A program made the position numbers and the translations under genes. Positions 9,494 to 31,745 of a stretch of 64,000 nt of DNA are shown one piece after another. Within the stretch, counting starts at the first letter, position 1, and each line of letters begins with the position of its first letter. The notes beneath the pieces are model-generated. The model was given only the letters and a program-made list of their open reading frames with translations, was not told where the DNA came from and ran no database searches. Location of the stretch: contig NZ_CP114901.1 in NCBI RefSeq assembly GCF_027497175.1, positions 124,001 to 188,000 on the forward strand, given 5' to 3'. The stretch is from Verrucosispora sp. WMMD573. GTDB lineage: Bacteria; Actinomycetota; Actinomycetes; Mycobacteriales; Micromonosporaceae.

Positions 9494-9501
9494 TCACCGG
9501 A

Positions 9502-9535: not shown

Positions 9536-9596
9536 GGGAGGAGGGCGTTGGAAAAGGACCTGCCCCGGCAGGCACCTCGTCAACGCCCCACCTCAC

Positions 9597-13272: not shown

Positions 13273-13469
13273 GCGGTTGTTCAGCTGTCGCGCCAGTCTC
13301 GTCTGCTCCCAAAGCCACTGTCAATCCGCTACCGATCGCACACGGTGGGTCGTGGCGGCGAGGTTCGTGGCGATCGCGGCCACGGGCCGACGCTCGGCGT
13401 CGGAGTGATGGGGCAGCTCGCCGCAGGTACCCGGCTGGACTGTCGTCGGCCTGGGTCAGGATAGGGTGG

Positions 13470-13668: not shown

Positions 13669-13796
13669 GCGTACACAAGGTGTGTGCGCTGCCGTCGACC
13701 TCGAGGGCGGGTCGGGCGGGTGACGCGCCACGACGGCGTGTTCCTCGACGTGCGCGCCCCACCGGTTGCCGGCATGCCGCCCGAGGACGGAAACCC

Positions 13797-17357: not shown

Positions 17358-18578
17358 TCAGGTGACCAGGGTTCCGTCCGAGATGCTGGCCGACGGCTCG
17401 CTGCCGGGAAGGACCGCAATCGCCGACCCGAAGTCCGGAAGCAGCGCCGCGTACGCCTTTTCCAACTGGACCTGGCAGGTGGTGTAGTCCTCGGCCACCA
17501 CAATGGCATGCCCGATTCGGCCGCCGAATCGGGCCGCCGGAGCCTCCGGTGCCGTCCACAGCGACTCGACACCGTCGGGAAGCTGCGCGGGTCGGCTCGT
17601 GGGTACGGTGTCTTCGACGGTGTCACCGTGACGGAAGATGATTCCGGCGGTATGCCGCCGGGTGTGCCGCAGCCGCGGTTGTCTCCCGAGCGCCGTGTCG
17701 ACCGCCGCCGCGACCAGGTCGACGCCGGTGGCCAAGGGCACCAGCCGGGAGATCAGGTCACCACCGAGCCGGGCGTTGAGCCCGATCAACCGGGGTCCGT
17801 CGGCGGTCAACCGTACCTCGGTGTGGGTGACGCCCTCGCACAGCCCGAGCGCGGCGTGGGCGGCATCGACGGCACGGCGTACCGAGGCCAGGTGCTCGGC
17901 CTGCTGAGGAACTGAGATCAGCCGGCTGGCTGTCGCGAGTCCCGGCCCTGGTCCGGCGTGCCGGCTTCCGGCCGCGACCACGTACAACCGGCCGCTGCGT
18001 ACCACCACTGACTCGACGCTGATCTGCGGCCCGTCCAGGTACTCCTGCACCAGAGCGCCGTCGGCGCCGGCCGCCCCGGCATAGGCGCGGGCCAGATCCG
18101 CCGGGCTGCGAACCAGCCGCACCCCGGTGCCGCCGGTCCCCGAACGCGGCTTGACCACGACCGGGTACCCCAGCTCGGCGGCGGCGCGGAGGGCCTGAAC
18201 CTCGTCGGTGACCAGGACCGACTGAGCCGACGGCACCCCCGCGGCGGCCCATGCCTGGCGCAGCCGGTGCTTGTCCCGGCAGGCGCGGGCCGACGGCACG
18301 GGATGACCGGGTAGCCGCAGCGCGCTGGTGGTGGCCGCGGCGGTCTCGATCCAGTCCTCCTCCCAGGTCAGCACCGCCTCCACGGACTCTTTCCGAGCCA
18401 GTAGCAGCACGGACGTCAGGTCGTCGGCGGCGATCCGGTGTACCGAGTCGGCGTAGCGGATCTCCCACGTCGCCGGAGACTCCTGGGCGAGCACCACGTC
18501 GTGCTCGGCGGCCACTGATGCGAGCATGTGCTCGCGGTCCAGGTCACGTCCGCTACCGAGGATCAGGATCTTGGGCAT
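17358..18578 (-). CDS. ATP-grasp carboxylate-amine ligase (candidate metallophore ligase)
   Basis: The protein has 406 residues. It has a biotin-carboxylase-like N-terminal domain (MPKILILGSGRDLDREHML), then the ATP-grasp core with YPVVVKPRSGTGGTGVRLV (ATP-binding lysine and glycine loop), ALVQEYLDGPQISVES, and the metal-binding HTEVRLT...LIGLNARLGGD. Such enzymes make amide bonds from a carboxylate, an amine and ATP. It is the last gene of a minus-strand run behind two ABC half-transporters. As the cluster contains no NRPS or NIS synthetase, this is the only visible amide-forming enzyme. Its substrates are unknown. Confidence 0.8.
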   Translation of the reverse strand: MPKILILGSGRDLDREHMLASVAAEHDVVLAQESPATWEIRYADSVHRIAADDLTSVLLLARKESVEAVLTWEEDWIETAAATTSALRLPGHPVPSARACRDKHRLRQAWAAAGVPSAQSVLVTDEVQALRAAAELGYPVVVKPRSGTGGTGVRLVRSPADLARAYAGAAGADGALVQEYLDGPQISVESVVVRSGRLYVVAAGSRHAGPGPGLATASRLISVPQQAEHLASVRRAVDAAHAALGLCEGVTHTEVRLTADGPRLIGLNARLGGDLISRLVPLATGVDLVAAAVDTALGRQPRLRHTRRHTAGIIFRHGDTVEDTVPTSRPAQLPDGVESLWTAPEAPAARFGGRIGHAIVVAEDYTTCQVQLEKAYAALLPDFGSAIAVLPGSEPSASISDGTLVT

Positions 18579-18660
18579 GATGGATCCTTACGTCGCGAGA
18601 GCTTCGGGCGATGAATCGGTCTGCGCCGAATCGGCGGGCCCCGGTCACGTCGAAGAGGGC

Positions 18661-20457
18661 TCACCCTTCGAGTTGCGAGGCGAGCAGGTCGACGTACGCG
18701 CCACCGGCGGCCACGAGTTCCTCATGGGTTCCGGTCTCGATCATTCGTCCGCCGGACAGCATGACGATCCGGTCGGCCGTCCTGATGGTGGAGAGCCGAT
18801 GCGCGATGATCAATGTGGTCCTGCCGTGCCGGGCTTCGTTCATCGCCTGGTTGACCGCCTGTTCGCTCGCGGCGTCAAGGTTTGACACCGCCTCGTCCAT
18901 GACCAGGATCGGGGCGTTCTTGAGCAGGGCCCGGGCGATCGCGATCCGTTGCCGTTGACCGCCGGACATGAGCGCGCCGAGTTCGCCCGCGATGGTGTCG
19001 TAGCCGTCTGGCAGTGTCGTGATGAACTCGTGGGCCTGGGCGGCCCGCGCGGCGGCCTCGACCTCCTCGTCGGAGGCGTCAGCGCGGCCGAGACGGATGT
19101 TCTCTCGCAGACTGGTGTTGAACAGGAACGTGTCCTGCGGAACCAGCGTCATGAGGCGGCGAAGGTCCTCCTGCGGGAAGTCGCGAACGTCGTGTCCGCC
19201 CACCGAGATAGATCCAGCGGTGACGTCCCAGAACCTCAGCAGCAGGTTGGCGCAGGTCGACTTCCCTGCGCCGGAGTGCCCCACCAGGGCGACCGTATCG
19301 CCGGGGCGGATCTCGAAACTGACATCTCGTACTGCGGGGGTCAGGTCGCTGCGGTAGGCGAAGGTGACAGCGTCGAAGCGCACATGCGGCACGATCGGGC
19401 CCTCGGGCGGTTGGTTGACCAGGTCCGAGACAGGGGCGGGTGCGTCGAGCAACGTGTTGATGCGGTCCGCTGACGAGGCCACCACGGACAGCTCACGCGC
19501 GACCTCGGTCACCTTCAGCACGGGCAGCATCGCCATCGCCGCGAGCACGACGGCGACCGGGAAGAGAGCGCGGTCGAGTTCGCCCGCGACGACGAGCCAC
19601 GCGCCGAGGGTCAGCACCACGAGTATTCCCAGCAGTGCGATGGTGTCTGTGGCGGCGTACTCGATGCCGCTGCGGCGTCCGTGCGCGGACTTCGCTTCGG
19701 CCAGCCGGACGCTCTGTTTGCGCAGCAGCCCGAGTCGCTGGGAGTGTGCGCCGAAGTTCACCAGTTCACGGAGTCCCTGAAAGGTGTCGGTGTTGTCGGC
19801 ACTGATCTGGCTGAGCGAGTCGCGTAGCTCGTGTCCGTGTCGTTCGGCCTGACGCCGCAACCATGCCGGTACTGAGGCGAGAAGTACCAGCACCGGAACC
19901 AGGACGCAGGCCAGCGACCAGTGGAACCAGCCGAGTGCGACGGTGGTCGCCACGGGCACGGTCGACGCTACCGCGAGCGGACTGAGAGTGTGGGCGAAGA
20001 ACAGCTCGATCTGTTCGACGTCTGCGACCGCGGCGGAGCCGAGGTCGCCGGAACGCCGTTCGAGCATGTAGCCGGGCGAGAGCCGTTCGAAGGCGGTGTA
20101 CACCTTCGCCCGGGTGTCGGCCAGCGCGCGGAAGGCAGCGATGTGTGCGTAGGTGCTGTCGGCGATGCTCAGGACGACCAGCGGCACGATGAGGGCGCCG
20201 AGTGCGATCAGCCAGCCGGTGAGCTGGTCCAGCGGGGCTCCCGTGGCGGCTCGTGCCACCACGTAGGCGCCGATGCCGGATGAGGCGAGCAGGAGCAGTT
20301 GGTGCAGCGCGCCGGCCAGATAGGCCACCACGATGAGCCGGCGGTGCTCGCCCAGGAGGGGCATCAGGCTCCTCAGCCTGGTGACCAGCGACCGGCCGTG
20401 CCCGTCTCCCGTGTCGTGGTCGTGGTCGTGGGAATGAGTGTGGACTGTCAAGGTCAT
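18661..20457 (-). CDS. ABC half-transporter with His/Asp-rich N-terminal tail
   Basis: The protein has 598 residues. A metal-binding-like tail (HTHSHDHDHDTGDGHG, residues 6-21) is followed by a six-helix exporter-type membrane domain and an ATPase with Walker A GHSGAGKST, signature MSGGQRQR and Walker B ILVMDEAVSNLD. With the upstream partner it forms a heterodimer like YbtPQ or IrtAB, which have an exporter fold but import metal-chelates. The 4-bp overlap with that partner supports coupled translation. The His tail is unusual and points to zinc or another borderline metal as cargo (inference). Confidence 0.85.
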   Translation of the reverse strand: MTLTVHTHSHDHDHDTGDGHGRSLVTRLRSLMPLLGEHRRLIVVAYLAGALHQLLLLASSGIGAYVVARAATGAPLDQLTGWLIALGALIVPLVVLSIADSTYAHIAAFRALADTRAKVYTAFERLSPGYMLERRSGDLGSAAVADVEQIELFFAHTLSPLAVASTVPVATTVALGWFHWSLACVLVPVLVLLASVPAWLRRQAERHGHELRDSLSQISADNTDTFQGLRELVNFGAHSQRLGLLRKQSVRLAEAKSAHGRRSGIEYAATDTIALLGILVVLTLGAWLVVAGELDRALFPVAVVLAAMAMLPVLKVTEVARELSVVASSADRINTLLDAPAPVSDLVNQPPEGPIVPHVRFDAVTFAYRSDLTPAVRDVSFEIRPGDTVALVGHSGAGKSTCANLLLRFWDVTAGSISVGGHDVRDFPQEDLRRLMTLVPQDTFLFNTSLRENIRLGRADASDEEVEAAARAAQAHEFITTLPDGYDTIAGELGALMSGGQRQRIAIARALLKNAPILVMDEAVSNLDAASEQAVNQAMNEARHGRTTLIIAHRLSTIRTADRIVMLSGGRMIETGTHEELVAAGGAYVDLLASQLEG

Positions 20458-22190
20458 GCGAGCGCACCAGCCTGGGTAGCGACGAGTTCGGCGTAAAGGC
20501 CCTTGCGTGCCACCAGGTCGGGGTGGCTGCCGAATTCGACCACCCTGCCGGACTCCATCACCACGATCCGGTCGGCGCCGCGCACGGTGGACAGCCGGTG
20601 CGCGATGATGATCGTCGTCCGACCGAGGGTCAGGTCACCGAGAGCCTGGGTGATCTCCGCTTCATTGGCGGCGTCGATACTCGATGTCGGCTCGTCGAGC
20701 ACGAGCACGGGAGCGTCCTTGAGAAGCGCACGCGCGATCGCGATGCGCTGCCGCTCGCCGCCGGACAGTTTCAGGCCGCGTTCGCCGACGACGGTGTCGA
20801 GGCCCCGGGGCAGGCGGGTGATGAAGTCGGCGGCCTGGGCAGCGGTCACCGCACGTCGGATCTCCTCGTCGGTGGCGTCGGGTCTGGCCAGGAGCAGGTT
20901 GTCGCGAACGGTGCCGTGGAACAGGTAGGTGTCCTGTGAGACCACGCCGATCATCGATCGCAGGTTACGCAGGGGTAGCTCACGGATGTCGCGATCATTG
21001 ATGCGGATGGATCCTGCGTCGGTGTCGAAGTAGCGCATGAGCAACCCGATGATGGTGCTCTTACCCGCTCCCGAGCGTCCCACGATGGCCACCCGTTCGC
21101 CCGGCGTTATGACCAGGTTGAACCCGTCCAGTGCCGGCGCCCGCCGGGTCGGGTAACAGAATCGGAGATCGCGGAACTCCAGGCCCGGAGGATCGCAGGG
21201 CAGTTCCGGTGCCGTGGTTGCCGTGTCTTTCACCACCGGTTCCAGATTCAGCACGTCGGCGACCGCGCGGCCGGCTGGGATGGCGTAGTAGGCCGAGTGG
21301 TAGGCCGCCTCCAGTTCGGTCATGGGCCGGAACGTCTCGCGGGTGAGCATCAGAATCGTGAACAAGCCCGCGACGCTCACCGAGCCGGTGGCAGCGTGCC
21401 AGGCGCCCAGGCCCACCGCGGCCGTGGTGCCGATCGGGACCATCAACGCGCCGATACTGGACGTGCCGCACCAGGCCACCATCAGCCCGATGGAGTCACG
21501 GCAGAACGCCTCCCCGCGTTCGATCAACTCTCGACCACGCCGGCCGCTGGCATTGAATGCCTTCAGTGTCGCCATCCCCTGAACAGCGTCCAGACTCTCC
21601 GAGTACATGCTTCGGTAGGAGACCGTCCAGCGGCTGCCACGTTCCCTGATCGACTTCTCTCCGGCCAGCTTGGACAACGGGGCAAGCAGCGCACACGCCA
21701 GCACGACCAGACCCACTACCGGGTCCACCGCTATCACGTACGTCGCAGCGAGACAGGAGCCCAGCACCGACGCCAGCACCGTCGGGACGAACCGACTCAG
21801 CAGCGGATCGAGCAACTCCACGGAGTCCACGAGCGTCGACTGCAGGTCACCGGTACGCATCCGCTGCGCCTGCCCGGGACCGATCTCCATCAACTTCAGG
21901 GTCAGTCCTTCACGCACCGCCTCCTTGACCCGGGCCGACACCCGCGGCGCCCACGAGTCCCGCACCACGATCAGCGCGATCCGCAGCACCTGCAGCACGC
22001 CGATCACCACCAGCGGCGTCGCCAGGCCGGCGATGTCGGCCGACGAGAAGACCGTGGACAGTAGGTCCGCGATCATCAGGCCTTGGCCGACATAGGTCGC
22101 CGTCACCAGCAACATCAGCCCGACCAGGCCGGCGATCTCCACCCATGACCGCGGACGCAGGCCAAGGAACAACTTCACGGTCGACCACAC
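20454..22190 (-). CDS. ABC half-transporter (YbtPQ/IrtAB-like), partner subunit
   Basis: The protein has 578 residues and starts at GTG 22190, with GGAGG at good spacing. A six-helix membrane domain (VEIAGLVGLMLLVTATYVGQGLMI...) precedes an ATPase with Walker A GRSGAGKST, signature LSGGERQR and Walker B VLVLDEPTSSID. It overlaps the following half-transporter by 4 bp. A perfect inverted repeat (22267-22285) lies 77 bp upstream, marking a promoter between it and the SbnA-like gene. Whether the pair exports the ligand or imports its metal complex is open. Confidence 0.85.
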   Translation of the reverse strand: MWSTVKLFLGLRPRSWVEIAGLVGLMLLVTATYVGQGLMIADLLSTVFSSADIAGLATPLVVIGVLQVLRIALIVVRDSWAPRVSARVKEAVREGLTLKLMEIGPGQAQRMRTGDLQSTLVDSVELLDPLLSRFVPTVLASVLGSCLAATYVIAVDPVVGLVVLACALLAPLSKLAGEKSIRERGSRWTVSYRSMYSESLDAVQGMATLKAFNASGRRGRELIERGEAFCRDSIGLMVAWCGTSSIGALMVPIGTTAAVGLGAWHAATGSVSVAGLFTILMLTRETFRPMTELEAAYHSAYYAIPAGRAVADVLNLEPVVKDTATTAPELPCDPPGLEFRDLRFCYPTRRAPALDGFNLVITPGERVAIVGRSGAGKSTIIGLLMRYFDTDAGSIRINDRDIRELPLRNLRSMIGVVSQDTYLFHGTVRDNLLLARPDATDEEIRRAVTAAQAADFITRLPRGLDTVVGERGLKLSGGERQRIAIARALLKDAPVLVLDEPTSSIDAANEAEITQALGDLTLGRTTIIIAHRLSTVRGADRIVVMESGRVVEFGSHPDLVARKGLYAELVATQAGALA

Positions 22191-22266
22191 GCCGACACCT
22201 CCACACTGACGAGATCACCGACCGCAGGAAACCGGCCATCGTGAGCCAGCCCCTACCGTCGCTTAC

Positions 22267-22285
22267 GATAACGGGAACCGTTATC
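22267..22285. promoter_or_regulatory. Perfect palindromic operator, probable Zur site
   Basis: GATAACGGGAACCGTTATC consists of two exact 8-bp arms with a 3-bp spacer. It lies in the 122-bp gap upstream of the ABC half-transporter pair. The GATAACGG half is shared with the site at 31771 in front of the zinc-independent L28 gene and is close to the sites at 32317, 38256 and 39645. Confidence 0.65.
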
Positions 22286-22312
22286 TCTTCGGACGACAAG
22301 CCACCCTTTTGG

Positions 22313-23341
22313 TTAGTGCACCTGCTCGGGTGTCTGTCCGGCTCGTTCGGCCGGGGCGCGACGCAGCATCGATGCGAGCCGGTCGACGACCCGCGCGTCA
22401 AACAAGCCGTTGGCCGCCATCCACTCGTCGTTGAAGACAGTGTCGAGGTACTTCTCACCACCGTCGCAAACCAGTGCGACGATGGTGGTCTCCGGTCCTA
22501 CGCTCTGCGCACGCTCCAGCGCCTTGTAGACCACGCCTCCCGCCGAGCCGCCCACGAGGATGCCGAAATTCCGGGCCAGGTAACGGCAGGTCTCGAAGGC
22601 CTCCGAGTCGCTGACCTTGATCCCCTCGTCGATCATGCGGTAGTCGAGGGTGTCACAGATCTCCGACACCACCGGCGTCCCGGTGCCTGACTGGTGGTAC
22701 GGAGCCTCCTCCCCGCCGAAATTCACGGAGCCCACCGGCTCGACACCGACGATCCGCAGTTCCGGGATGCGTTCCCGCAGGACACGACCGGTGCCGCAGA
22801 GCGACCCCCCGGTGCCGACAGCCCCATACAGGTAGTGAATGTCCTCGCCCAGATCGTCGTACAGTTCGCGGGCGAGCGGCCGGTATCCGTTCGGGTTTCC
22901 CGGATTACTGTCCTGCGAGGTGCAATACGCGCCTTGCTCGGCCGCGAGCCGCCGAGCCGTGGCGTACCGCTCGGCGGTGGCCAGTCCGTTGTCGTCTCCA
23001 CCGACGTTCAGCAGCTCGGCGCCGTAGGCGAGCATCCCGCGCAGCTTGTCGACACTGGAATGGTTGTCCACCACGGCGGTGAACTTGTAGCCGCGTTCAG
23101 CGGCGATGAGCGCGAGGCCGATCCCGGTGTTGCCGGAGGTGGCCTCGACCAGCCACCCGCCGGGGCCGAGCAGCCCCTGCTCCTCGGCCTCGTCCACCAT
23201 ATTTCTGGCCATCCGGATCTTGGCGGTACCGGTGGGGTTGTACTGCTCCATCTTGAGCAGGACGGTTCCCGCCCCACCCGGCACCGACAGTCTGAGCAGC
23301 GGCGTCCGCCCGATCAGATCGGATACCTTGTCCCTGATCAT
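22313..23341 (-). CDS. sbnA: SbnA-like PLP enzyme (diaminopropionate synthesis)
   Basis: The protein has 342 residues of fold type II (cysteine synthase-like). It has IGRTPLLRLSV at the start, the likely PLP lysine in NPTGTAKIRMA, EATSGNTGIGLALIAAERGY, and the phosphate loop GAVGTGGSLCGTGRVL. SbnA joins O-phosphoserine and glutamate to N-(2-amino-2-carboxyethyl)-glutamate, the precursor that SbnB splits into L-2,3-diaminopropionate. The SbnB-like gene is two genes upstream in the same overlapping run, which favours this reading over a housekeeping cysteine synthase. Confidence 0.85.
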   Translation of the reverse strand: MIRDKVSDLIGRTPLLRLSVPGGAGTVLLKMEQYNPTGTAKIRMARNMVDEAEEQGLLGPGGWLVEATSGNTGIGLALIAAERGYKFTAVVDNHSSVDKLRGMLAYGAELLNVGGDDNGLATAERYATARRLAAEQGAYCTSQDSNPGNPNGYRPLARELYDDLGEDIHYLYGAVGTGGSLCGTGRVLRERIPELRIVGVEPVGSVNFGGEEAPYHQSGTGTPVVSEICDTLDYRMIDEGIKVSDSEAFETCRYLARNFGILVGGSAGGVVYKALERAQSVGPETTIVALVCDGGEKYLDTVFNDEWMAANGLFDARVVDRLASMLRRAPAERAGQTPEQVH

Positions 23342-24492
23342 TGCTCACCCTTCGCACAGATTCGCATCAGACAACGCACAAAGACGTCGTTGTCCTCGGG
23401 AAGCGACAATGAGGCTCGGATAAAGTTCTCGTACCCCGGCTCACGCCAGGCCTTGACGACGATCCCGACGCGGTGCAACTCCTGTGCCACCCAGTCCGAG
23501 CGGCAGCCCGTGTCGATGAACACGAAGTTGGCCGACGACGGTGCTACGCGGAAGCCCGCCTCGCGCAACCCGTCCGTGACCCGAGCGATCTCGAGGCCGG
23601 TCCGGCGGACGGTCTCCGCCAGGTGCGCGTGGTCACCCAGCGCGGCGATGGCCGCGTCCTGAGCCAGCTGGTTGACGTTGTAGGGTGCGCGAACCCGGTC
23701 CAGTGCCTGGACCAGGGCGGTGTCGGAAGCGACGCCGTATCCCACCCGGACACCCGCCAGGCCGTACGCCTTGGAGAAGGTGCGCAGGACGATCCACGGC
23801 CGGTGCTGCTCGCGCAGCAGCGCCAGCCCGTCGGGATAGCCCGGGTCGGGCCGGGCGAACTCGCAGTACGCCTCGTCGAGCACCAGCAGAGCCGACTCCG
23901 GGGTCTCGGCCACGAGGTGCGCCAACTCGCCGACGTTGAGCATCGCGCCGGTCGGATTGCAGGGATTGGCGAGGAAGACCAGTTTCGGGCCCGCGGCCAG
24001 CGCGTCACGCCAGGCGGACGGGTCGAACCCGAACTCCTCGGTGACCGGGACTTTCTCGACCCGGGCGCCCACCATGCGGGGAAAGATCTCGTGCAGGCTG
24101 AAGCCCGGTGCCTGAGTGGTCACGAGGTCGCCCGGATCGAGTACCGCCTGGCACAGCAACTCCAGGATGTTCTCCGAACCGTTGCCGAGGACGACGCGCT
24201 CGGCAGGTACCGCCAGGCGCTCCCCGACAGCCTCCGCCAACCGTCTTCCCGTGGGGTCGGGATAGCGGGAGACGCCGCTGGCCAAACGTCCGCGTACCGC
24301 TTCGGCCACCGCCGGGGAGGAGCCGAACGGGCTTTCGTTGTTGGACAGCTTGATCACGCGGGCGGCGCCGCTGAGGGCGGCCACCGCATCCGGGTCGGCG
24401 CCGGGGTCGTAGGCGGGCAGGCCCGCCACCACCCGGCGCACCACGGATGCCGAGGTCGTCGCCGCGACGGCACCGGCCTCGACCGCGCTCAC
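23338..24492 (-). CDS. HisC-like class I/II aminotransferase
   Basis: The protein has 384 residues of fold type I PLP aminotransferase: VIKLSNNESPFGSSPAV, GNGSENILELLCQAVL, NPCNPTGAML, and the Schiff-base lysine in TFSKAYGLAGVRVGYG. It is closest in style to histidinol-phosphate aminotransferases. It overlaps SbnB- and SbnA-like genes by 4 bp on both sides, so it belongs to the diaminopropionate pathway operon, not to histidine synthesis. It may convert an amino acid to an oxo acid, or the reverse, to supply a second building block. The substrate is unknown. Confidence 0.82.
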   Translation of the reverse strand: MSAVEAGAVAATTSASVVRRVVAGLPAYDPGADPDAVAALSGAARVIKLSNNESPFGSSPAVAEAVRGRLASGVSRYPDPTGRRLAEAVGERLAVPAERVVLGNGSENILELLCQAVLDPGDLVTTQAPGFSLHEIFPRMVGARVEKVPVTEEFGFDPSAWRDALAAGPKLVFLANPCNPTGAMLNVGELAHLVAETPESALLVLDEAYCEFARPDPGYPDGLALLREQHRPWIVLRTFSKAYGLAGVRVGYGVASDTALVQALDRVRAPYNVNQLAQDAAIAALGDHAHLAETVRRTGLEIARVTDGLREAGFRVAPSSANFVFIDTGCRSDWVAQELHRVGIVVKAWREPGYENFIRASLSLPEDNDVFVRCLMRICAKGEQ

Positions 24493-25466
24493 CAGAAATC
24501 GACCCGCTGGCCACGCCCGGCCGCCAGCGCGAGGTCGGCGATGTACCGGCCCAGCGCGGCGTCGGTGACCGCCATCCCGCTGTTGTAGGCGAAGACCACA
24601 TCGCCGGGATCACGTCGGGCCGGTGTCCGGCCGAGCAGGATGTCGGGCAGTTCGCCGTCGATCGGGGGCAGGCTCCCGTCCGGGCCTCGCAGTTTGCCGC
24701 AGGTGACCTGCATCTGCGTGATGTCGGTGGCGATCCGGTAGTCGGCGCCGTGGAACACGTCGTGGACGCCGTAGCCGAGCAGGACGGAGATCGATCCGGG
24801 CTTGACCCAGTCGCGCTGGACCACCTTCGTCACGGACAGACCGGAGGCGCCGATCAGGATGTCCGCTTCGCCAGCGGCTTTCTGGAGGTCGTCCACGATC
24901 TCCACCTCGCGACCGTCGACACTGTTCTGAACGGCCCGTAGACCGTCGGCATAGGTGCCGCTCACCTGCAACCGCTCCAGATTCGGAAGCGCCGCGACCA
25001 GCATCGGCAGGGCCATCTGCCCCTGCACGCCGGTGCCGATGACCAGGGCGGTGCGGGCGTCCGGGCAGGCCGCACGGGCGAACAACGCGCTGCTGGCCGA
25101 CGACCGCAACGGCCCCAGTTTCACCACGTCCATCAGTGCGATGGGCATCCCAGTGGTGTCGTCGGCGATGAAGATGAACGAGTGGAATCGGTAGTCATCG
25201 CGGCGGCGGCTCGGGTCGAACTCGTAGACGGCCTTGAAACACACGGTGTCGCTGCCGCCGTCCCGGGCCACCATCGAGTAGCTGAGCGAGTGGTCGTCCG
25301 GGTCCTCGATCACCGTCTTGACCGGGTTGTTCGACCCGCTCTCCCGCAGAGCGCGGTAGGCGCCCTCGACGACCTCAAGCACCTGCCGATAGTCGAAGTT
25401 CAACCCTTCCTGCTCCGACTGCGGCAACAACCACAGCTGTCCGGGGGCGGCGTAGCTCTGTGACAT
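24489..25466 (-). CDS. sbnB: SbnB-like dehydrogenase (diaminopropionate synthesis)
   Basis: The protein has 325 residues of the ornithine cyclodeaminase/mu-crystallin family, with LWLLPQSEQEGLNFDY near the start and the NAD-binding ALVIGTGVQGQMALPML. SbnB oxidatively hydrolyses the SbnA product to L-2,3-diaminopropionate plus 2-oxoglutarate. The start at ATG 25466, preceded by GAAGGAGAAA, is preferred over an ATG at 25532 that would run into the upstream gene. The 4-bp overlap with the aminotransferase supports an operon. Confidence 0.87.
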   Translation of the reverse strand: MSQSYAAPGQLWLLPQSEQEGLNFDYRQVLEVVEGAYRALRESGSNNPVKTVIEDPDDHSLSYSMVARDGGSDTVCFKAVYEFDPSRRRDDYRFHSFIFIADDTTGMPIALMDVVKLGPLRSSASSALFARAACPDARTALVIGTGVQGQMALPMLVAALPNLERLQVSGTYADGLRAVQNSVDGREVEIVDDLQKAAGEADILIGASGLSVTKVVQRDWVKPGSISVLLGYGVHDVFHGADYRIATDITQMQVTCGKLRGPDGSLPPIDGELPDILLGRTPARRDPGDVVFAYNSGMAVTDAALGRYIADLALAAGRGQRVDFW

Positions 25467-25494
25467 GGGAGTTTCTCCTTCGTGTCGAGACTGC

Positions 25495-26859
25495 TCAGAT
25501 CCCGTCCAGTCGCCAGCGCGGTGATCCGTCACCGAGCCGGAGGACCGCTTTCAACGGCAGCGCGGTGTCGTGGAACCGGGATTCGAGGAAGTCTGAGTGG
25601 TAGCCGGCGGTGTTGAGGTAGACGAGGTGGTCACCGGGGCGTACCGGTCGGGGGAACCCGATCTTGCGCCAGGTGACCATGTCGTTCTCCAGACAGGTCG
25701 AGCCCGCGACGCAGGCCGGGAACTCCTCCTCGGCGACGGACTGGGCGGAGAGCAGGATGGGGTCCGGCAGATAGTCGGTGTTGAACCACTGTTCGCAGAG
25801 GCTCAGGCTGTTGCCCGCGACGGTGGCGATGGCGTACCCGTCGGTGTCGCGCCGGTCTTCGACCTGTTGCACGCAGAACACGGTGAAGCCGGCCTGATCC
25901 AGCAGCGACCTGCCCGGCTCGACGATGAAGCGGATGCCGGTGCGGACTGCCTTCGCCGACAGGCTCTCGTCGCCGTCGACGGGATGGTTCATGATCATGT
26001 GTGCGGCCTGGGTGGTGGGCAGTCCTCCGTACGGATAGAAGTGCAGGCCCCTGGAGGTCTTGGTCCCGTGGTAGTGGGCCGGCTCGTTGTGCTGGAGGAA
26101 TTCGTCCCAGAGCTGCGGATCGACGTACCGCATGGGTAGACCGCCGCCGATGTTGACCAGGTCGGCGGCCTGTGCGCCGCGTCGCTTGGCGTCGAGGCAG
26201 TATTCGATCATCTCGTTCGCTGCTGTCGCCCGTTCCTCAGGCGAGTAGCCGTTGAGGTGGAACGAGAATCCACAGAGGCTCACGTGCTCGACGAGCTCCA
26301 GACACTGATCGACCGCCGCGTCACGCTCGGCCGCGGCCATGCCGAAGCGACTTCCCGGCTGGCTCCCGGTCCGAGCCCGCAGTAGCACCCTGACCTGTCG
26401 ATGCGCGAGTCTCGCGGTGGCGGCCAGCCGGCGGAGTTCGCTGACCGAGTCGACGGCGACCAGACAGTCGTGCTGGACACCGAGAGAGTGCAGAGTGTCG
26501 TCCTTCTCGGGGCCGGAGATGCCGATCCGGTGTCCGGGCACTCCGCCGGCCAGGGCTTTGACCAGTTCGGCGGCGCTGGCGACGTCGACTCCGATGCCGG
26601 CGGCGGCGGCCGACCGGGCGAAGCAGTCGGCCTTGTTCGCCTTCTTGGCGAACAGGATGTCGATGTCGGCGCCCGTCTCGGCGAACGCCTGCCGAAGCGC
26701 CGCGATGTTCTCTTCGAAGACCTCCGGCAGCACGACGTGCAGCGGTGAACCCAGGCCGTCCAGGAGTTCGGCAAGCAGGGCTCGGTGGCCGTCCAGAAGC
26801 GTGGAGACCGTGGGATGCCGAAGGGCGGTGAGCGTGAAGGGTTGGACTCCGGTCAGCAT
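25495..26859 (-). CDS. Y4yA-family PLP-dependent decarboxylase (SbnH/DapDC-like)
   Basis: The protein has about 454 residues (fold type III; start at ATG 26859, with GTG 26889 and ATG 26919 also in frame). It contains DILFAKKANKADCF with the PLP lysine, SFHLNGYSPEERA, EPGRSLLDQAGFTVF, and TCLENDMVTW with the catalytic cysteine-acid pair. Relatives decarboxylate meso-diaminopimelate or ornithine, or act in siderophore assembly (SbnH, Y4yA). It is the first gene of the biosynthetic run, with 28 bp to the SbnB-like gene. A likely role is decarboxylation of a diaminopropionate- or amino-acid-derived intermediate. Confidence 0.83.
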   Translation of the reverse strand: MLTGVQPFTLTALRHPTVSTLLDGHRALLAELLDGLGSPLHVVLPEVFEENIAALRQAFAETGADIDILFAKKANKADCFARSAAAAGIGVDVASAAELVKALAGGVPGHRIGISGPEKDDTLHSLGVQHDCLVAVDSVSELRRLAATARLAHRQVRVLLRARTGSQPGSRFGMAAAERDAAVDQCLELVEHVSLCGFSFHLNGYSPEERATAANEMIEYCLDAKRRGAQAADLVNIGGGLPMRYVDPQLWDEFLQHNEPAHYHGTKTSRGLHFYPYGGLPTTQAAHMIMNHPVDGDESLSAKAVRTGIRFIVEPGRSLLDQAGFTVFCVQQVEDRRDTDGYAIATVAGNSLSLCEQWFNTDYLPDPILLSAQSVAEEEFPACVAGSTCLENDMVTWRKIGFPRPVRPGDHLVYLNTAGYHSDFLESRFHDTALPLKAVLRLGDGSPRWRLDGI

Positions 26860-26909
26860 CGGCTCAGTTACTGATTGCGACGTTGTCACCTCGCCATGTC
26901 TACTAGACT

Positions 26910-26924
26910 TGATAACCATGTGCA
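26910..26924. promoter_or_regulatory. Candidate Zur-type operator (strong half-site)
   Basis: TGATAACCATGTGCA lies between the divergent decarboxylase (minus) and substrate-binding lipoprotein (plus) genes. The left half TGATAAC equals the half-site of the zinc-island operators, while the right half is degenerate. If it is the operator, it favours the downstream decarboxylase start at 26859. Confidence 0.4.
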
Positions 26925-27048
26925 ATAGGCGATCGATGCTAGTCGCTTTCCGCATGACGACCCCACGGGGCGGCACCGTGATCATCCTGAATGGAATCGC
27001 CCCCCGCGCCCCTTCGCTGCCGCCGCGCGGGCTGCTAGCCTGCCAGCG

Positions 27049-28074
27049 ATGAAAACGACAACGGGTATCAGAGTCATGACCGCTGCGACGATGCTGGTCC
27101 TCGCGGGGTGTTCGAGCGGCGAGCCCCCCGGCGCGACCGCTCCGGCGGTGTCAACGGCGCCGGGTGGAACGACCTACCCGCTGACCATGAAGAACTGCGG
27201 CACCGACGTGACCTTCGAAGCGGCGCCACAACGGGTCGTCACGCTGAACCAGACGGCAGCCGAGATCCTCATCAAACTCGGGGTGGGCGACCGGGTCGTC
27301 GGATCGGGTTACGAGATCTACAAGCCACCGGCCGAGATGGCCGAACCCTACGGGAAGATCCCGCAACTGGGTCCACGCGGCGAGCCGGTCAAGCACGAGA
27401 AGCTGCTGGAAGCGCAGCCGGACTTCGTCTACAGCGGTTTCGGGAGCTTCCTCACCGCAGAGCAGGCCGGCGATCGCAAGCAGTTGCACGACCTGGGCGT
27501 GGCAACCTACGTCACCGAGTTCGACTGCAGCTACCACGTCAGCGTGCCGGACGCGGACTTCGACATGTTGTACGACGAGTACCACGCCCTGGCCAAGATC
27601 ATGAGTGTTCCGGACGCCGGAGAGAAGCTGGCGGCCGAACAGAAGGCCTTGGTGGACCAGGCGGTGGGCGCTATGAAGAACAAGGACAAGCCGCTGACGG
27701 TGCTGTGGTTCTACTCCACCTACGACGGGACGCCGTGGGCTGCGGGTCCCGGCGGTCTGCCGCAGCACGTCTCCGAACTCGTCGGGGTGCAGAACATCTT
27801 CGACGACGCGAAGACCAAGTGGGCCGAGGTGAGCTGGGACGAGGTCGCCGCCCGGAACCCCGACGTCATCATCCTGGCCGACCTGACCAGGGGCGAGCCC
27901 AACGACACCGCGGCGGAGAAGATCGCCCTGCTCAAGAAGGACCCGCTCACCAGCAAGCTCGGCGCGGTGACAGGCGACCGTTTCATCACCATCCCCGGCG
28001 CCCAGATGGACCCCTCCTACGGCAGTGTGGAGATGGTTCCCGCCCTGGTCGAAGGTCTGAACAAGTTCCGGTGA
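27049..28074 (+). CDS. FecB/BtuF-type substrate-binding lipoprotein (metal-chelate)
   Basis: The protein has 341 residues with a lipoprotein signal (MLVLAGC, lipid cysteine at about 21). The class III binding-protein fold is seen in FEAAPQRVVTLNQTAAEILIKLGVGDRVVGSG, the long central helix, and WDEVAARNPDVIILAD. This family binds siderophores, haem, cobalamin and metal-chelates. The permease and ATPase of the same FecBCD type follow directly, so the operon imports a chelate, presumably the product of the divergent biosynthetic genes. Confidence 0.87.
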   Translation: MKTTTGIRVMTAATMLVLAGCSSGEPPGATAPAVSTAPGGTTYPLTMKNCGTDVTFEAAPQRVVTLNQTAAEILIKLGVGDRVVGSGYEIYKPPAEMAEPYGKIPQLGPRGEPVKHEKLLEAQPDFVYSGFGSFLTAEQAGDRKQLHDLGVATYVTEFDCSYHVSVPDADFDMLYDEYHALAKIMSVPDAGEKLAAEQKALVDQAVGAMKNKDKPLTVLWFYSTYDGTPWAAGPGGLPQHVSELVGVQNIFDDAKTKWAEVSWDEVAARNPDVIILADLTRGEPNDTAAEKIALLKKDPLTSKLGAVTGDRFITIPGAQMDPSYGSVEMVPALVEGLNKFR

Positions 28075-28087
28075 GCGGCCGACGACC

Positions 28088-29185
28088 ATGACGACGAACC
28101 TGCACAAAGCCGCCAGGCGCGCCTCGAACCCGATCACCGGCTCCAAGCCGGCGCCATCGCGTCTGCGGCGCGTCTCGGTGGCGGCCATCATCCTCCTAGC
28201 CATGGTCGGGCTGCTGGCGTCGATCATCGCGGCGTCCCTGTTCGGCAGTGCGAACATCAGCGCTCTTGATGTCGTCTCCACAATCCTGCGGCACATCGGC
28301 CTGGGCGAGATCGCTCCGAACCCGCCGCTGCCGAGATTGCTGGACGCGCTGATCTGGGAGTCACGCTTCCCGCGCGTGCTGCTGTCCGCGCTCGTCGGCG
28401 CAGCACTGGCCGTCTCGGGAGCGGTCCTGCAGGCGATCACCAGGAACCCGCTAGCCGACCCGTACCTGCTGGGGGTCTCCTCCGGCGCCTCGACCGGGGC
28501 AGTTGCCGTCATCCTCCTGGGGATCGGTGGCGGCATCTCGCTGTCAACCGGAGCTTTCATCGGCGGTCTGCTCGCCTTCGGCCTGCTGCTGCTCCTGCTC
28601 GGTGGAGGACGCGTCGCCAGCCCCACCCGCGTGGTGCTCACCGGTGTGCTCGTCGCCCAGTTCTTCGCCGCTGTCACCTCGCTCATCCTCATGATCAGCG
28701 GGGATGCGAACTCCACCCGCGGCTTCACCTACTGGCTGCTCGGTACCCTTGCGGGCGCCAGGTGGGACGGAGTGAATTTCACCGCCGTCATCATCCTGGC
28801 CGGGGTAGTGGCCATCCTTTTCTTCGCGTCTTCCCTGGACGCCTTCACTTTCGGCTGGGACTCTGCGACAGCCCTGGGCGTCAACGTCACAGCGGTCCGC
28901 ATCTGGCTGATGGTGCTGACCTCTCTCATCACGGCGGCCGCCGTGGCCGCCTCCGGCGCGATCGGCTTCGTCGGCCTGCTCGTCCCGCACGCTGTCCGCA
29001 TCCTGGTCAGCCCGATGCACCGCACGTTGCTTCCGCTGTCGGCGGTCGTCGGCGCCATCCTGCTCATCTGGGTGGACACGTTCGCCCGGACGGCGTTCAC
29101 GCCGCACGAACTGCCCGCCGGCGTCATCACCGCGCTCCTCGGTGCGCCGGCCTTCGCGCTGGTCCTCAAGCGTCTGGAGTCCTGA
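28088..29185 (+). CDS. FecCD-family ABC permease
   Basis: The protein has 365 residues with about nine to ten transmembrane helices and the FecCD signatures WESRFPRVLLSALVGAALAVSGAVLQAITRNPLADPYLLG and AASGAIGFVGLLVPHAVR. It acts as a homodimer in a type II importer with the lipoprotein upstream and the ATPase downstream. The stop codon overlaps the ATG of the ATPase by one base. A charged 35-residue N-terminal extension precedes the first helix. Confidence 0.9.
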   Translation: MTTNLHKAARRASNPITGSKPAPSRLRRVSVAAIILLAMVGLLASIIAASLFGSANISALDVVSTILRHIGLGEIAPNPPLPRLLDALIWESRFPRVLLSALVGAALAVSGAVLQAITRNPLADPYLLGVSSGASTGAVAVILLGIGGGISLSTGAFIGGLLAFGLLLLLLGGGRVASPTRVVLTGVLVAQFFAAVTSLILMISGDANSTRGFTYWLLGTLAGARWDGVNFTAVIILAGVVAILFFASSLDAFTFGWDSATALGVNVTAVRIWLMVLTSLITAAAVAASGAIGFVGLLVPHAVRILVSPMHRTLLPLSAVVGAILLIWVDTFARTAFTPHELPAGVITALLGAPAFALVLKRLES

Positions 29186-29991
29186 TGGGCCGCATCAACG
29201 CCAGCGAGCTCTCCTGGTCGGTCAAGGGACACCGGCTGCTGGACAACATCGAGGTGGCGGCCCAGGACGGAAAAATCGTCGGCCTGCTCGGGCCCAACGG
29301 CTCGGGCAAGTCGACCCTGCTACGCCTGCTCGCCGGACTGCGCCGCCCCGACACCGGCACCGTCGAGTACGACGACACCAGCCTGCGCGACCTGAGCCGC
29401 CGGGTGCTCGCCCGGCGGCTCGCCGTCGTCGAGCAGGACGTGACCGCCCACAACCACGTCAGCGTCCGGCAGGTCGTCGAGCTCGGTCGCACACCGTTCC
29501 GGGGCCGCTTCGACGCACTGACCGAGCACGATCAGCGGGTCATCGATGCGGCACTGGAACGGGTCGGTATCACCGACAAGCAGCGCCAGAGCTGGCACAC
29601 CCTGTCGGGAGGCGAGAAACAACGCGCCCAACTCGCCCGTGCACTCGCTCAGGAACCGCGGGAGATCCTGCTCGACGAACCCACCAACCATCTCGACATC
29701 CGCTACCAGCTCGAACTGCTCGAACTGCTGGGATCGCTGAGGGTCACCTGTGTCGTCGCCCTGCACGACCTCAATCTCGCTGCACGCTACTGCCACCACG
29801 TCGTCGTCCTCGACCACGGGCAGGTGTTCGCCGCCGGCGCGCCCGAGGCAGTGCTCACCGCCGAACTGATCAGATCGGTCTACGGCGTGGAGGTACTGGT
29901 CGACCGGGAGCCCACCGCGGGCACTCTCCGCATCACCTACCTGGCTGCCACCGCCCCGCGAACGGCTGACGCGACGGCCATCGCGGGTTGA
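29185..29991 (+). CDS. FecE-type ABC ATP-binding protein
   Basis: The protein has 268 residues with Walker A GPNGSGKST, Q-loop VVEQD, signature LSGGEKQRAQLARALAQ, Walker B ILLDEPTNHLD and H-loop ALHDLNLAAR. This is the BtuD/FecE type serving chelate importers. The start at ATG 29185 overlaps the permease stop (TGATG), which fixes the start. Confidence 0.92.
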   Translation: MGRINASELSWSVKGHRLLDNIEVAAQDGKIVGLLGPNGSGKSTLLRLLAGLRRPDTGTVEYDDTSLRDLSRRVLARRLAVVEQDVTAHNHVSVRQVVELGRTPFRGRFDALTEHDQRVIDAALERVGITDKQRQSWHTLSGGEKQRAQLARALAQEPREILLDEPTNHLDIRYQLELLELLGSLRVTCVVALHDLNLAARYCHHVVVLDHGQVFAAGAPEAVLTAELIRSVYGVEVLVDREPTAGTLRITYLAATAPRTADATAIAG

Positions 29992-30019
29992 CGTCATCCG
30001 TGACTGGAGAACGATACCC

Positions 30020-31258
30020 ATGCTTGACAACGCCGTGGCGGCCCCTCCCGCGCCGACCCCCCTGCTGCGAAGCAAGTCCTTCGTCCGGCTCTGGACCGGC
30101 ACGATGGCCTCCGGCGTGGCGACGTGGGCACTGCCGTTCATCCTCGGTCTGGCAGTCCTCGACCGGTCGCTGACCGGCGTCGGGCTCGGAGTTCTCCTGG
30201 CCACGCGCACAGTGGGTTTCCTCGCCGCCATGCCGGTCGCCGGTGTGCTGGCCGACCGGTACTCCCGGAGGCAGACGGTGCTCTGGTCCGGGCTGATGGC
30301 CGCCCTCGCCACGCCCGTCATGGCGATGAGTTTGGACCGATCGCTGTTGGTGCCCGCAGCCGCGGCGTTCGTGATGGGCGCCGGGCAGGGCGCGTGCCGC
30401 CCAGCTTTCCAGGCACTGACCGCCGAGGTGGTCGCCGAGCCACAGCGGCAACAGGCGAACGCCGCGATCACTCTCGCGGTCCGGGTCACCACCCTGGTGG
30501 CGCCGACGCTCACCGCGCTGCTGGCCGTAGCCGTCTCCACGCCGGTGCTGCTGTGGGGCGTCGGTGCCCTGTGGTTGGTGGCCGCGTTGGTTCCTCCCCC
30601 GGGGAACGATTCGCCTCCACCTTCGACCACCAGGCCGAACATTCTGGCCGACTTCGCCGACGGATTGCGTGAAGCCCGTAGGCATCCCTGGTTCGTCGCC
30701 GGCCTGGCCGCGTTGACCGCGGTGATCGCCACCGGGTACTCGGCCACCTTCGTGGTGTTGCCACTGGTCAGCCGGGACCGCTTCGGCAGCGAGGCCGTGC
30801 TGGCGGCCGCGATGACCACCTACACGATCGGCGCCCTCGTCGGTGCCATGATCATTGCAAGATGGCGGCCCCGGGCCCAGGGTTGGTCCGCGCTGGCCGG
30901 GCTTGCGCTCTACGGACTCGTGCCGCTGAGCCTGCTGCTGCCGGTGCACCCCGTAGTGATCTTCGCCGCGTATGTGCTCGCCGGCATCGGCATCGAGCTG
31001 TTCAACGTTCCCTGGTTCACCGCCACCCAGCGCGAGGTCGAGCCCGCCAAACTCGCCCGGGTGTCCTCACTCGATTTCCTGCTCTCCTACGGCCTCGCAC
31101 CGGTCGGTCTTGCGCTCATCGCACCCGCAATCGACCAGTTTGGCGCGACCGTGGTTCTGACCGTCTGCGCGGTGGTGTGCGTCGCCGCTCCAGCGGCGGC
31201 GGCGGTGGTTCCCTCGTCCCGAGGCTTCTCGGCGAGCCACGGCAGATCGAACGCATGA
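30020..31258 (+). CDS. MFS exporter (EntS-like), candidate metallophore exporter
   Basis: The protein has 412 residues with 12 predicted helices and the A-loop motif LADRYSRRQTVLW between helices 2 and 3, as in MFS exporters such as EntS and related siderophore exporters. It lies 28 bp after the importer ATPase, so it is in the importer operon. Export of the ligand made by the divergent genes is the simple reading. Its 3' end runs directly into the remnant of a zinc-independent S14 gene on the opposite strand, showing a deletion there. Confidence 0.8.
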   Translation: MLDNAVAAPPAPTPLLRSKSFVRLWTGTMASGVATWALPFILGLAVLDRSLTGVGLGVLLATRTVGFLAAMPVAGVLADRYSRRQTVLWSGLMAALATPVMAMSLDRSLLVPAAAAFVMGAGQGACRPAFQALTAEVVAEPQRQQANAAITLAVRVTTLVAPTLTALLAVAVSTPVLLWGVGALWLVAALVPPPGNDSPPPSTTRPNILADFADGLREARRHPWFVAGLAALTAVIATGYSATFVVLPLVSRDRFGSEAVLAAAMTTYTIGALVGAMIIARWRPRAQGWSALAGLALYGLVPLSLLLPVHPVVIFAAYVLAGIGIELFNVPWFTATQREVEPAKLARVSSLDFLLSYGLAPVGLALIAPAIDQFGATVVLTVCAVVCVAAPAAAAVVPSSRGFSASHGRSNA

Positions 31259-31360
31259 CTGCAGTAATCAATGGCCTCGCCGGGCAAGAGTGGACGAGGC
31301 CCGGTGCCGGCTACCGGCTCGTCATCCCAAGATCTCGGCCAAGTCTGCCGTACCAGCCGC

Positions 31361-31434
31361 CGCAGGGCGAAGGCGTACCGGGCGACCAGTTCCTCTCGGC
31401 GGGCCTGCCGGTTGACCAGGCTCTTCTTGGCCAT
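31361..31434 (-). pseudogene. rpsN: Zinc-independent ribosomal protein S14, 5' remnant
   Basis: MAKKSLVNRQARREELVARY is the conserved start of the long, cysteine-free S14 form. After about 25 residues homology stops and the frame runs antisense into the MFS gene. The normal length is 101 residues. The order L28-L33-S14 is that of Zur-controlled ribosomal operons, so a deletion has removed the distal part. Confidence 0.75.
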
Positions 31435-31509
31435 CAGCGTGCCTCGCGAAACTCGACGTGGCGGCGCACGATCGGGTCGTACTTGCGCAGGGTCAAGCGG
31501 TCGGGCCAT
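31434..31509 (-). pseudogene. rpmG: Ribosomal protein L33 with internal deletion
   Basis: The start ATGGCCCG overlaps the L28 stop (TGATG). The end, in another frame, reads PDRLTLRKYDPIVRRHVEFR, the typical L33 C-terminus, stopping in TGATG with the S14 start. Only 76 bases remain of about 168, and 76 is not a multiple of three, so the middle was lost and the frame was destroyed. The two CCCG flanks suggest slippage between short repeats. Confidence 0.75.
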
Positions 31510-31745
31510 CAGAGCTTCACCCCCCAGCTACGCAGCTCGGCGACGACCTTCTCGATGCCCTTGCGGTCCACGGTCTTCAACACCTTCGCCGTCAGGGTGA
31601 GGCTGACCCACCGCCGCTGCGACGGCAGCCAGTAACGGTGGTTCTGCAGGTTCGGGTTCCACCGGCGACGGGTGCGCCGATGGGAGTGGGACACGGCGTT
31701 GCCGAAACTCGGCTTCGCGCCGGTGACGTCACAGCGTCGGGACAC
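31509..31745 (-). CDS. rpmB: Ribosomal protein L28, zinc-independent paralogue
   Basis: The protein has 78 residues (GTG start at 31745, with AAGGAGA 6 bp upstream) containing CDVTGAKPSFGNAVSHSHRRTRRRWNPN. A complete zinc ribbon is missing: only one cysteine is present. In actinobacteria such paralogues replace the zinc-binding form during zinc starvation and are repressed by Zur. A candidate Zur site lies 25 bp upstream. It is the only intact gene of its ribosomal operon. Confidence 0.9.
   Translation of the reverse strand: MSRRCDVTGAKPSFGNAVSHSHRRTRRRWNPNLQNHRYWLPSQRRWVSLTLTAKVLKTVDRKGIEKVVAELRSWGVKL

Follow-up and report, generated by a model that had tools for sequence, protein, structure and literature searches.

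Ethylenediamine disuccinic acid (EDDS) is a biodegradable substitute for ethylenediaminetetraacetic acid; its direct precursor is O-phosphoserine, and to our knowledge its class is known mainly through this one product. Amycolatopsis japonica makes EDDS under Zur control with aspartate as a precursor (PMC9252823), antiSMASH 7 names the class 'aminopolycarboxylic acid metallophores' (PMC10320115), and the A. japonica EDDS cluster is mentioned in PMC10486106. Here we analyse a gene block at 17358..31258 of a 64-kb stretch of DNA (the window, whose numbering is used throughout), which spans bases 124,001–188,000 of the complete 6.5-Mb genome of Verrucosispora sp. WMMD573. Its gene content, its kinship to an A. 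japonica operon and its predicted promoter sites make it likely that the block encodes a zincophore system of the EDDS class under Zur control, in a variant that carries a HisC-like aminotransferase.

Gene content and kinship to the probable EDDS operon

Four core genes with overlapping listed ends run along the minus strand, from a decarboxylase (Dec) through SbnB-like and HisC-like genes to an SbnA-like gene. On the same strand, beyond a 122-base gap, lie genes for two ABC half-transporters and for a protein of ATP-grasp fold, while FecB, FecCD, ATPase and MFS genes diverge from the core on the plus strand. All genes that an earlier, sequence-only reading had named in this block are there:

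25495..26985, minus strand: type III decarboxylase dependent on pyridoxal phosphate (PLP), LysA/SbnH-like fold, core gene 1 (PF02784, 77 bits)
24489..25532, minus strand: SbnB-like dehydrogenase of the ornithine-cyclodeaminase family, core gene 2 (PF02423)
23338..24492, minus strand: HisC-like PLP aminotransferase, the mark of the HisC branch (PF00155; TIGR01141)
22313..23341, minus strand: SbnA-like PLP beta-replacement enzyme, core gene 3 (PF00291)
22191..22312: gap upstream of the ABC pair, with the inverted repeat GATAACGG-GAA-CCGTTATC and a weak Zur-type site at 22272
20454..22190, minus strand: ABC half-transporter 1, exporter fold (PF00664 and PF00005)
18661..20457, minus strand: ABC half-transporter 2, His-rich N terminus HTHSHDHDHDTGDGHG (PF00664 and PF00005)
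17358..18578, minus strand: ATP-grasp-fold protein, metal-site Glu replaced by Gly (IGLNAR; PF02786)
27049..28074, plus strand: FecB-type lipoprotein (PF01497)
28088..29185, plus strand: FecCD-type permease (PF01032, 289 bits)
29182..29991, plus strand: ABC ATPase of the importer (PF00005, 122 bits)
30020..31258, plus strand: MFS carrier where most relatives have a MATE exporter (TIGR00900, 132 bits, under its cut-off)

The core matches an A. japonica operon of the order SbnB–Dec–SbnA–MATE (L122:9157-13911), with identities of 51% for the SbnA-like protein, 40% for the SbnB-like protein and 42% for the decarboxylase. That operon is headed by its genome's only SbnB-like match at E<=1e-50 and has the Zur-type box AGACAATCATTTTCA just upstream; in the Amycolatopsis genome G180, the tested 6 kb of contig is 100% identical to the A. 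japonica plasmid NZ_CP008954.1. It is very probably the EDDS operon, which we take to be the one named aesA-D (Spohn 2016 reportedly names the aes genes), and the view that the gene combination matches no pathway that could be named therefore falls away.

Shared with the A. japonica operon are the three core enzymes, a Zur-type box and the motif NP-x-G-[ST]-x-K-x-R, which every one of the 81 SbnA-like rows in the comparison shows, the residue before its Arg being Ile, Val, Leu or Thr; the cysteine synthases compared have Asp at that position. The window departs from the strict EDDS (aes) layout, SbnB–Dec–SbnA–MATE without HisC, in its gene order Dec–SbnB–HisC–SbnA and in having a HisC-like aminotransferase, an MFS carrier rather than MATE, a FecBCD importer, a pair of ABC half-transporters and a Glu-lacking ATP-grasp protein. 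In keeping with the class, whose gene content we took from one published example (PMC13206832), cysteine-synthase-like, LysA-like decarboxylase and ornithine-cyclodeaminase-like genes stand in one operon. The PLP motifs of the three proteins checked, namely the decarboxylase (FAKKAN and CLEND), the HisC-like protein and the SbnA-like protein (NPTGTAKIR, TSGNTG and GTGGS), are all intact; against the lysA model of NCBIfam the decarboxylase scores 103 bits, under that model's cut-off. The SbnA-like and SbnB-like proteins had been read as the enzymes that make L-2,3-diaminopropionate (Dap). Homologues of these enzymes are indeed present, but both fall far under the cut-offs that NCBIfam sets for the Dap enzymes (239 bits against 350 for TIGR03945, and 65 against 327 for TIGR03944), and the A. 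japonica SbnA-like and SbnB-like proteins miss them in the same way.

The window holds no IucA/IucC domain (the genome's three matches lie at 4.35–4.63 Mb, the window at 0.124–0.188 Mb) and no condensation domain of a nonribosomal peptide synthetase (NRPS; the genome's 21 matches, 20 of them over the cut-off, lie at positions of at least 2.5 Mb). Every open reading frame (ORF) assigned to the block belongs to a family other than the polyketide synthases, whose domains themselves got no separate search. We rejected a product of an NRPS or of an NRPS-independent siderophore (NIS) synthetase on the absence of IucA/IucC and condensation domains from the window, and the proposal of a small metal ligand made without either, with its own transporters alongside, is supported. 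Opine-like zincophores such as staphylopine and pseudopaline, small amino-acid-derived compounds finished by a dehydrogenase, are alike in idea only, and no nicotianamine-synthase-like gene was found among the block ORFs scanned (Pfam, NCBIfam). Coelibactin is NRPS-made, and the window has no condensation domain. It is a Zur-controlled metallophore of an actinomycete (PMC6103462). Staphyloferrin B, whose SbnA, SbnB and SbnH belong to the same enzyme families as the window's proteins, contains a diaminoethane unit and uses a decarboxylase (PMC3179956); the window differs in the scores of its enzymes under the SbnA/SbnB equivalog cut-offs and in having no NIS synthetase. No relative of the block was found in the viral contigs scanned.

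Layouts among relatives

Among the matches listed for the SbnB-like enzyme in a protein search are relatives in Amycolatopsis, Streptomyces, Pseudomonas and Acinetobacter. A scan of one genome per species confirmed 256 relatives, of which the best 80 were retained (43 HisC-type and 37 TauD-type), and a search of Amycolatopsis with the SbnB-like protein (E<=1e-50) gave 25 places in 24 of 80 genomes, 4 HisC-type and 21 plain. Of these, 17 plain and two HisC-type places were fetched with flanks, the other two HisC-type places being L004 and L005. Layout groups were assigned by gene order, some loci being cut by contig ends (for example L058 and L071), and neighbour genes were counted within about 10 kb of a locus; the incomplete match L054 and the HisC-less L030 count as misses.

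Three layouts make up the 80 scan loci and the 17 fetched plain Amycolatopsis loci: a plain, EDDS-type layout (SbnB, Dec, SbnA, MATE), a TauD-dioxygenase layout (TauD–SbnB–Dec–SbnA–(MATE)) and a HisC-aminotransferase layout (mostly Dec–SbnB–(MATE)–HisC–SbnA), to which the window cluster belongs. HisC is present in 41/43 HisC-type, 0/37 TauD-type and 0/17 plain loci, and TauD in 36/37 TauD-type, 0/43 HisC-type and 0/17 plain loci. A MATE gene accompanies 37/43 HisC-type and 31/37 TauD-type loci, relatives of the window's MFS carrier occur in 4/43 HisC-type loci, and importer genes lie upstream in some plain loci (L113, L114, L115 and L118). The HisC-type layout is also found in Pseudomonas, Acinetobacter and Pseudoalteromonas; species within Amycolatopsis differ, some having the HisC type and some the plain type, and an SbnB-like gene is present in 4 of 160 Micromonospora genomes. 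One of the scan loci, L002 of Verrucosispora sioxanthis CWR15, encodes an SbnB-like protein 98% identical to that of the window. The literature searched, outside which most subscription journals lie, gave no description of an EDDS-type zincophore from Micromonospora or of a branch with HisC, and a review of Amycolatopsis does not mention EDDS.

In a quick SbnB tree, with SH-aLRT support only and no bootstrap, the HisC-type rows are separated by a 100*-supported branch, and the actinobacterial HisC type nests inside proteobacterial HisC types, which suggests that this branch moved horizontally between Proteobacteria and actinomycetes. Counts of changes in metal control along the tree are rough, with L119 and L120 labelled 'other' despite Zur-type boxes and L125 labelled 'Zur' though its site lies about 620 bases ahead.

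These distributions bear on whether the block makes [S,S]-EDDS itself, its HisC-like enzyme only raising the supply of oxaloacetate from aspartate. The core enzymes are the same as those of the A. japonica operon, again with a Zur-type box, but EDDS seems not to need HisC, since none of the 17 plain loci has the gene that 41 of 43 loci of the HisC branch carry. The separate, well-supported place of the HisC-type rows in the quick tree and the split of Amycolatopsis species between the two types also speak against EDDS, which we regard as an unlikely product. The HisC-like protein scores 286.6 bits against TIGR01141 (cut-off 276.55), which three further copies in the genome also exceed. Near the C terminus of HisC an Arg (as in VRPF) contacts the substrate phosphate; at this position all 44 cluster rows have Lys, and of four other genome copies three have Arg (L135, L136 and L138) and one, L134, has a gap.

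We rejected the ATP-grasp protein as a stand-in for the usual synthetase, the role it had been given by the sequence-only reading. Its gene is found in 3/43 HisC-type, 0/37 TauD-type and 0/17 plain loci, among these in Micromonospora only. Two Glu and one Asn of ATP-grasp enzymes hold Mg-ATP; here E254 and N268 are kept and the other Glu is G266, leaving one Glu of the pair. This metal-site Glu (of IEVNAR) is kept in 13 of 18 aligned rows and is Gly in the window protein and its four closest relatives (P0121–P0124), as it is in all four Micromonospora loci (the window and L001–L003). Among solved structures the protein is closest to L-amino acid ligases; a normal ligase role appears doubtful because the Glu is replaced by Gly, and this replacement together with the restriction to Micromonospora loci indicates that the protein is probably not the missing synthetase. 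The model in which free L-Dap comes from SbnA and SbnB and is condensed by the ATP-grasp ligase into a Dap-based zinc ligand can draw on the SbnA/SbnB homology and on the ATP-grasp gene, which sits in the cluster and shares its distribution over Micromonospora with the SbnB-like gene, both being found in the same 4 of 160 genomes. Yet both Sbn-like enzymes are far under their cut-offs, the ATP-grasp gene is nearby in just those three HisC-type loci, the Glu is Gly in the four Micromonospora loci and in P0121–P0124, and a plain Dap amide would need no decarboxylase, which makes this model improbable. Because the core matches the probable EDDS operon, free Dap is probably not the building block, the better candidate being an N-(2-aminoethyl) amino acid.

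A methyltransferase gene separates the ABC pair from FecB in Amycolatopsis L005, and L119 has an ORF that is similar by eye; these and the ATP-grasp gene look like lineage-specific additions. The His-rich N terminus of ABC half-transporter 2 also recurs in L119.

Predicted metal control

We scored the window with a position weight model built from 31 boxes that lie near gene starts in homologous clusters from other genera, none of them from Micromonospora. Zinc-type sites take ranks 1–7 of the 63,986 window positions, two at cluster promoters and five at zinc-gene neighbours, and six places score at least 14 against 0.3 expected (first-order Markov null, 20 runs). With a fixed Zur consensus, a limit of 3 mismatches gives two sites in the window, and a limit of 2 gives one place in the genome. 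The seven sites are:

26910..26924, minus strand: Zur-type box of the biosynthetic operon, TGCACATGGTTATCA (rank 6 of 63,986)
27056..27070, plus strand: Zur-type box of the FecBCD–MFS unit, CGACAACGGGTATCA (rank 5 of 63,986)
32317: Zur-type site ahead of a COG0523 gene (rank 1 of 63,986)
39645..39659: Zur box between ZnuB and the ZnuC-like ATPase (rank 2 of 63,986)
42703: Zur-type site ahead of a secreted protein beside ZnuA (among ranks 1–7)
38262: Zur-type site between the second COG0523 gene and the His-rich protein (among ranks 1–7)
31776: Zur-type site ahead of rpmB2 (rank 7 of 63,986)

At the level of sequence the cluster thus has the metal-responsive promoter sites of the aminopolycarboxylic class, as predicted boxes of ranks 5 and 6, and the proposal that its metal is zinc gains from the two cluster promoters scoring as Zur boxes together with those of the zinc-gene neighbours. 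Because these boxes overlap the listed starts, the decarboxylase probably begins at M43 (26859) and FecB possibly at M10 (27076). The core-operon box lies in a conserved block of the alignment with three Micromonospora loci, of which L001 and L002 keep it and L003 shows two changes; similar boxes occur in L005, L006 and L013, and the FecB-side box has counterparts in L002, L003, L004 and L120. The site at 22272 before the ABC pair is weaker, yet it sits inside a perfect inverted repeat, and in Amycolatopsis L004 and L120 the ABC pair has better-matching boxes ahead of it.

The block adjoins zinc-homeostasis genes: znuABC, two COG0523 genes, two genes for Fur-family regulators, rpmB2 and a gene for a His-rich repeat protein. 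The Zur targets of Streptomyces coelicolor include znuABC, yciC under COG0523 and alternative ribosomal proteins (PMC6103462). In the window these neighbours are:

31509..31745, minus strand: rpmB2, ribosomal L28 paralogue (PF00830), Zur-type site 31776 upstream
32353..33660, plus strand: COG0523/CobW GTPase (PF02492, PF07683), Zur box 32317 upstream
34787..35218, plus strand: Fur-family regulator 1 (PF01475, 80 bits)
35251..35658, minus strand: Fur-family regulator 2 (PF01475, 110 bits)
36810..38162, minus strand: second COG0523 GTPase (PF02492, PF07683)
38389..38841, plus strand: His-rich repeat protein with LHDGHxHHAHDGHYDE repeats and a Zur-type site at 38262, a probable zinc-binding protein
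38982..39635, minus strand: ZnuC-like ATPase, called ZnuC by its position beside ZnuB (PF00005)
39644..40561, plus strand: ZnuB permease (PF00950, 196 bits)
41754..42659, plus strand: ZnuA zinc-binding protein (PF01297, 238 bits)
42740..43921, plus strand: secreted protein beside ZnuA, with a weak PQQ_2 match under the cut-off and a Zur-type box at 42703, which we take to be possibly AztD-like

In a second zinc locus of the genome (G000:C1:1275938-1277265), the Zur box TGACAATCGTTTTCA stands ahead of an 86% identical COG0523 paralogue. After rpmB2 comes a short rpsN2-like start, MAKKSLVNRQARREELVARYA (31372..31434, minus strand, within 31087..31509), whose likeness was seen by eye and which has no Pfam match; the stretch loses its S14 likeness beside the MFS gene, which may be where the metallophore block came in.

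Boxes of relatives were counted from −120 to +140 around the extrapolated first codon, a stretch chosen because the real start lies further in, at mismatch limits of 2 of 15 (Zur) and 5 of 19 (IdeR and Fur), with L002 and L003 counted by the FecB-side box. The sequence-only reading had suggested following the gene set across genomes together with its link to Zur; the search gave the 43 HisC-type loci, and either the core operon or its FecB side carries a Zur-type box in 18 of the 20 actinobacterial ones (0.40 expected), against IdeR/DmdR-type boxes in 0/20. Actinobacterial TauD-type loci have IdeR/DmdR-type boxes in 25/28 (0.29 expected) and Zur-type boxes in 1/28. Plain Amycolatopsis loci have a Zur-type box at SbnB in 9/17 (0.15 expected); in 5 further loci such a box lies 0.6–4.7 kb ahead (four at about 4.7 kb), and 3/17 have none (L115, L116 and L121). 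The only IdeR-type site among the 17, 72 bases ahead of SbnB, is in L115, which also has a FecCD-type importer gene and is a possible case, on its predicted sites, of a metal switch inside the plain branch.

TauD-bearing clusters of Streptomyces and relatives share the three core enzymes with the window and usually have MATE, but carry TauD rather than HisC, mostly a peptide-type ABC importer, and IdeR/DmdR-type instead of Zur-type boxes. This branch (L049–L052 and L057–L080) is probably a family of iron siderophores on the EDDS scaffold. One such iron-boxed cluster, in Streptomyces sp. LaPpAH-108 (L057:15804-20100), lies beside rpmB and COG0523 homologues, an odd pairing with zinc genes.

An iron siderophore system is another reading of the block itself, whose importer is of the FecBCD family. 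Iron control within the class has already been seen, a Nocardia aminopolycarboxylic cluster with a DmdR1 site and a MATE gene being in print (PMC10920908), and the boxes of the TauD branch point the same way. We nevertheless rejected iron regulation of the HisC branch in actinobacteria on the absence of IdeR-type boxes from all 20 loci; set beside the Zur-type boxes in 18 of these and the zinc-gene neighbourhood, an iron siderophore is very improbable here. The block could also be read as an antibiotic pathway with no link to metals, its product containing Dap as dapdiamide and viomycin do; an ATP-grasp enzyme takes part in dapdiamide synthesis. SbnA/SbnB homologues also occur in such clusters (PMC3179956), but Zur-type boxes, a siderophore-type importer, zinc neighbours and core sequences that match an EDDS-type operon leave hardly any room for this origin.

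Proposed working and significance

For a Zur-controlled zincophore system of the EDDS class we infer the chemical steps, transport directions, metal and Zur binding as follows. The SbnA-like enzyme would join the amino group of an amino acid, probably aspartate, to the C3 unit of O-phosphoserine. SbnA uses O-phosphoserine and Glu, and aspergillomarasmine synthase O-phosphoserine and Asp (PMC12751119); by analogy with both, the product would be an N-(2-amino-2-carboxyethyl) amino acid. The decarboxylase would strip the serine-derived carboxylate to give an N-(2-aminoethyl) amino acid, and the SbnB-like dehydrogenase, for which matches to solved structures gave no preferred reaction direction, would reductively couple this amine to a 2-oxo acid, yielding an ethylenediamine with two amino-acid arms. 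With oxaloacetate as the 2-oxo acid the result would be EDDS; the HisC-like aminotransferase may supply or change one arm, so that the ligand is probably a relative of EDDS rather than EDDS. The MFS carrier would export it, and the zinc complex would be re-imported by FecBCD and perhaps also by the His-rich ABC pair. YbtPQ chains are among the solved-structure matches of ABC half-transporter 2 but do not outrank exporters, and the matches of the pair fit neither import nor export more clearly. Zinc-loaded Zur would repress the two divergent units, and perhaps the ABC unit too.

Several observations weigh against this picture. Identity to the A. japonica proteins is only 40–51%, the MATE exporter is missing from the window cluster, and the A. 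japonica operon is assigned as aes by elimination and from the antiSMASH papers. The best NCBIfam matches of FecB and FecCD are F420-0 transporters, though under cut-off (binding protein, 214 bits against 392; permease, 331 against 437), and the role of HisC is a guess. The training boxes were picked by eye from matches to a Zur consensus, the box at the ABC pair is weak (rank 17 of 63,986), and the core operons of L019 and L033 lack a box. The 19-base Fur pattern also matches 13 of the 20 actinobacterial HisC-type loci, because Zur and Fur boxes overlap in sequence. In proteobacterial HisC-type loci, sites before the TonB gene match the Zur pattern in 11/22 and the Fur pattern in 1/22, so either kind is possible, and a site before the decarboxylase is found in 0/23; the nine proteobacterial TauD-type loci match the Zur pattern in 5/9 and the Fur pattern in 2/9. 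As these proteobacterial sites are unclear, we argue for zinc, and for a split by metal, in actinobacteria only.

A wider reading, which we put forward tentatively and with less than even confidence, is that a single three-enzyme core underlies three branches of aminopolycarboxylate metallophores, in which the actinobacterial tailoring enzyme goes with the metal and the HisC branch leads to an undescribed, zinc-preferring ligand. The plain and HisC branches would be mainly under Zur and the TauD-hydroxylase branch under IdeR/DmdR. The HisC branch would add a non-Asp arm, for example from imidazolylpyruvate, to the ethylenediamine scaffold; an Asp/His hybrid of this kind would be C12H18N4O6, with [M+H]+ at 315.130.

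The window holds other elements as well. A PepSY-TM gene (15069..16502, minus strand) recurs at G000:C1:5365951-5367381 as a copy of 99% identity, and a search of 25 other relatives at E<=1e-80 gave no match; this is a recent duplication, perhaps on an accessory island. A group II intron with a reverse transcriptase/maturase/HNH ORF lies at 7355..9596 (plus strand; RF00029 match at 9500..9596) and an IS4/5-family transposase at 3537..4394 (plus strand). A cobalamin riboswitch (13463..13679, plus strand, 100 bits) stands ahead of a 4HBT thioesterase-like ORF and overlaps the start listed for that ORF.

The window cluster is a relative of the known EDDS pathway, and its extra enzyme suggests a different ligand; from the sequence-only reading, zinc and the absence of NRPS and NIS enzymes carry over, whereas the ATP-grasp synthetase and a pathway without known match do not. 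For some Micromonospora a zincophore is now predicted, and with it comes a pointer to new aminopolycarboxylates of natural origin. With the class divided among three layouts, of which two show opposite predicted metal control in actinobacteria, it has become testable whether an added HisC or TauD accompanies a zinc/iron switch of an ethylenediamine chelator, a question that the HisC layout in Pseudomonas, Acinetobacter and Pseudoalteromonas carries beyond the actinomycetes.

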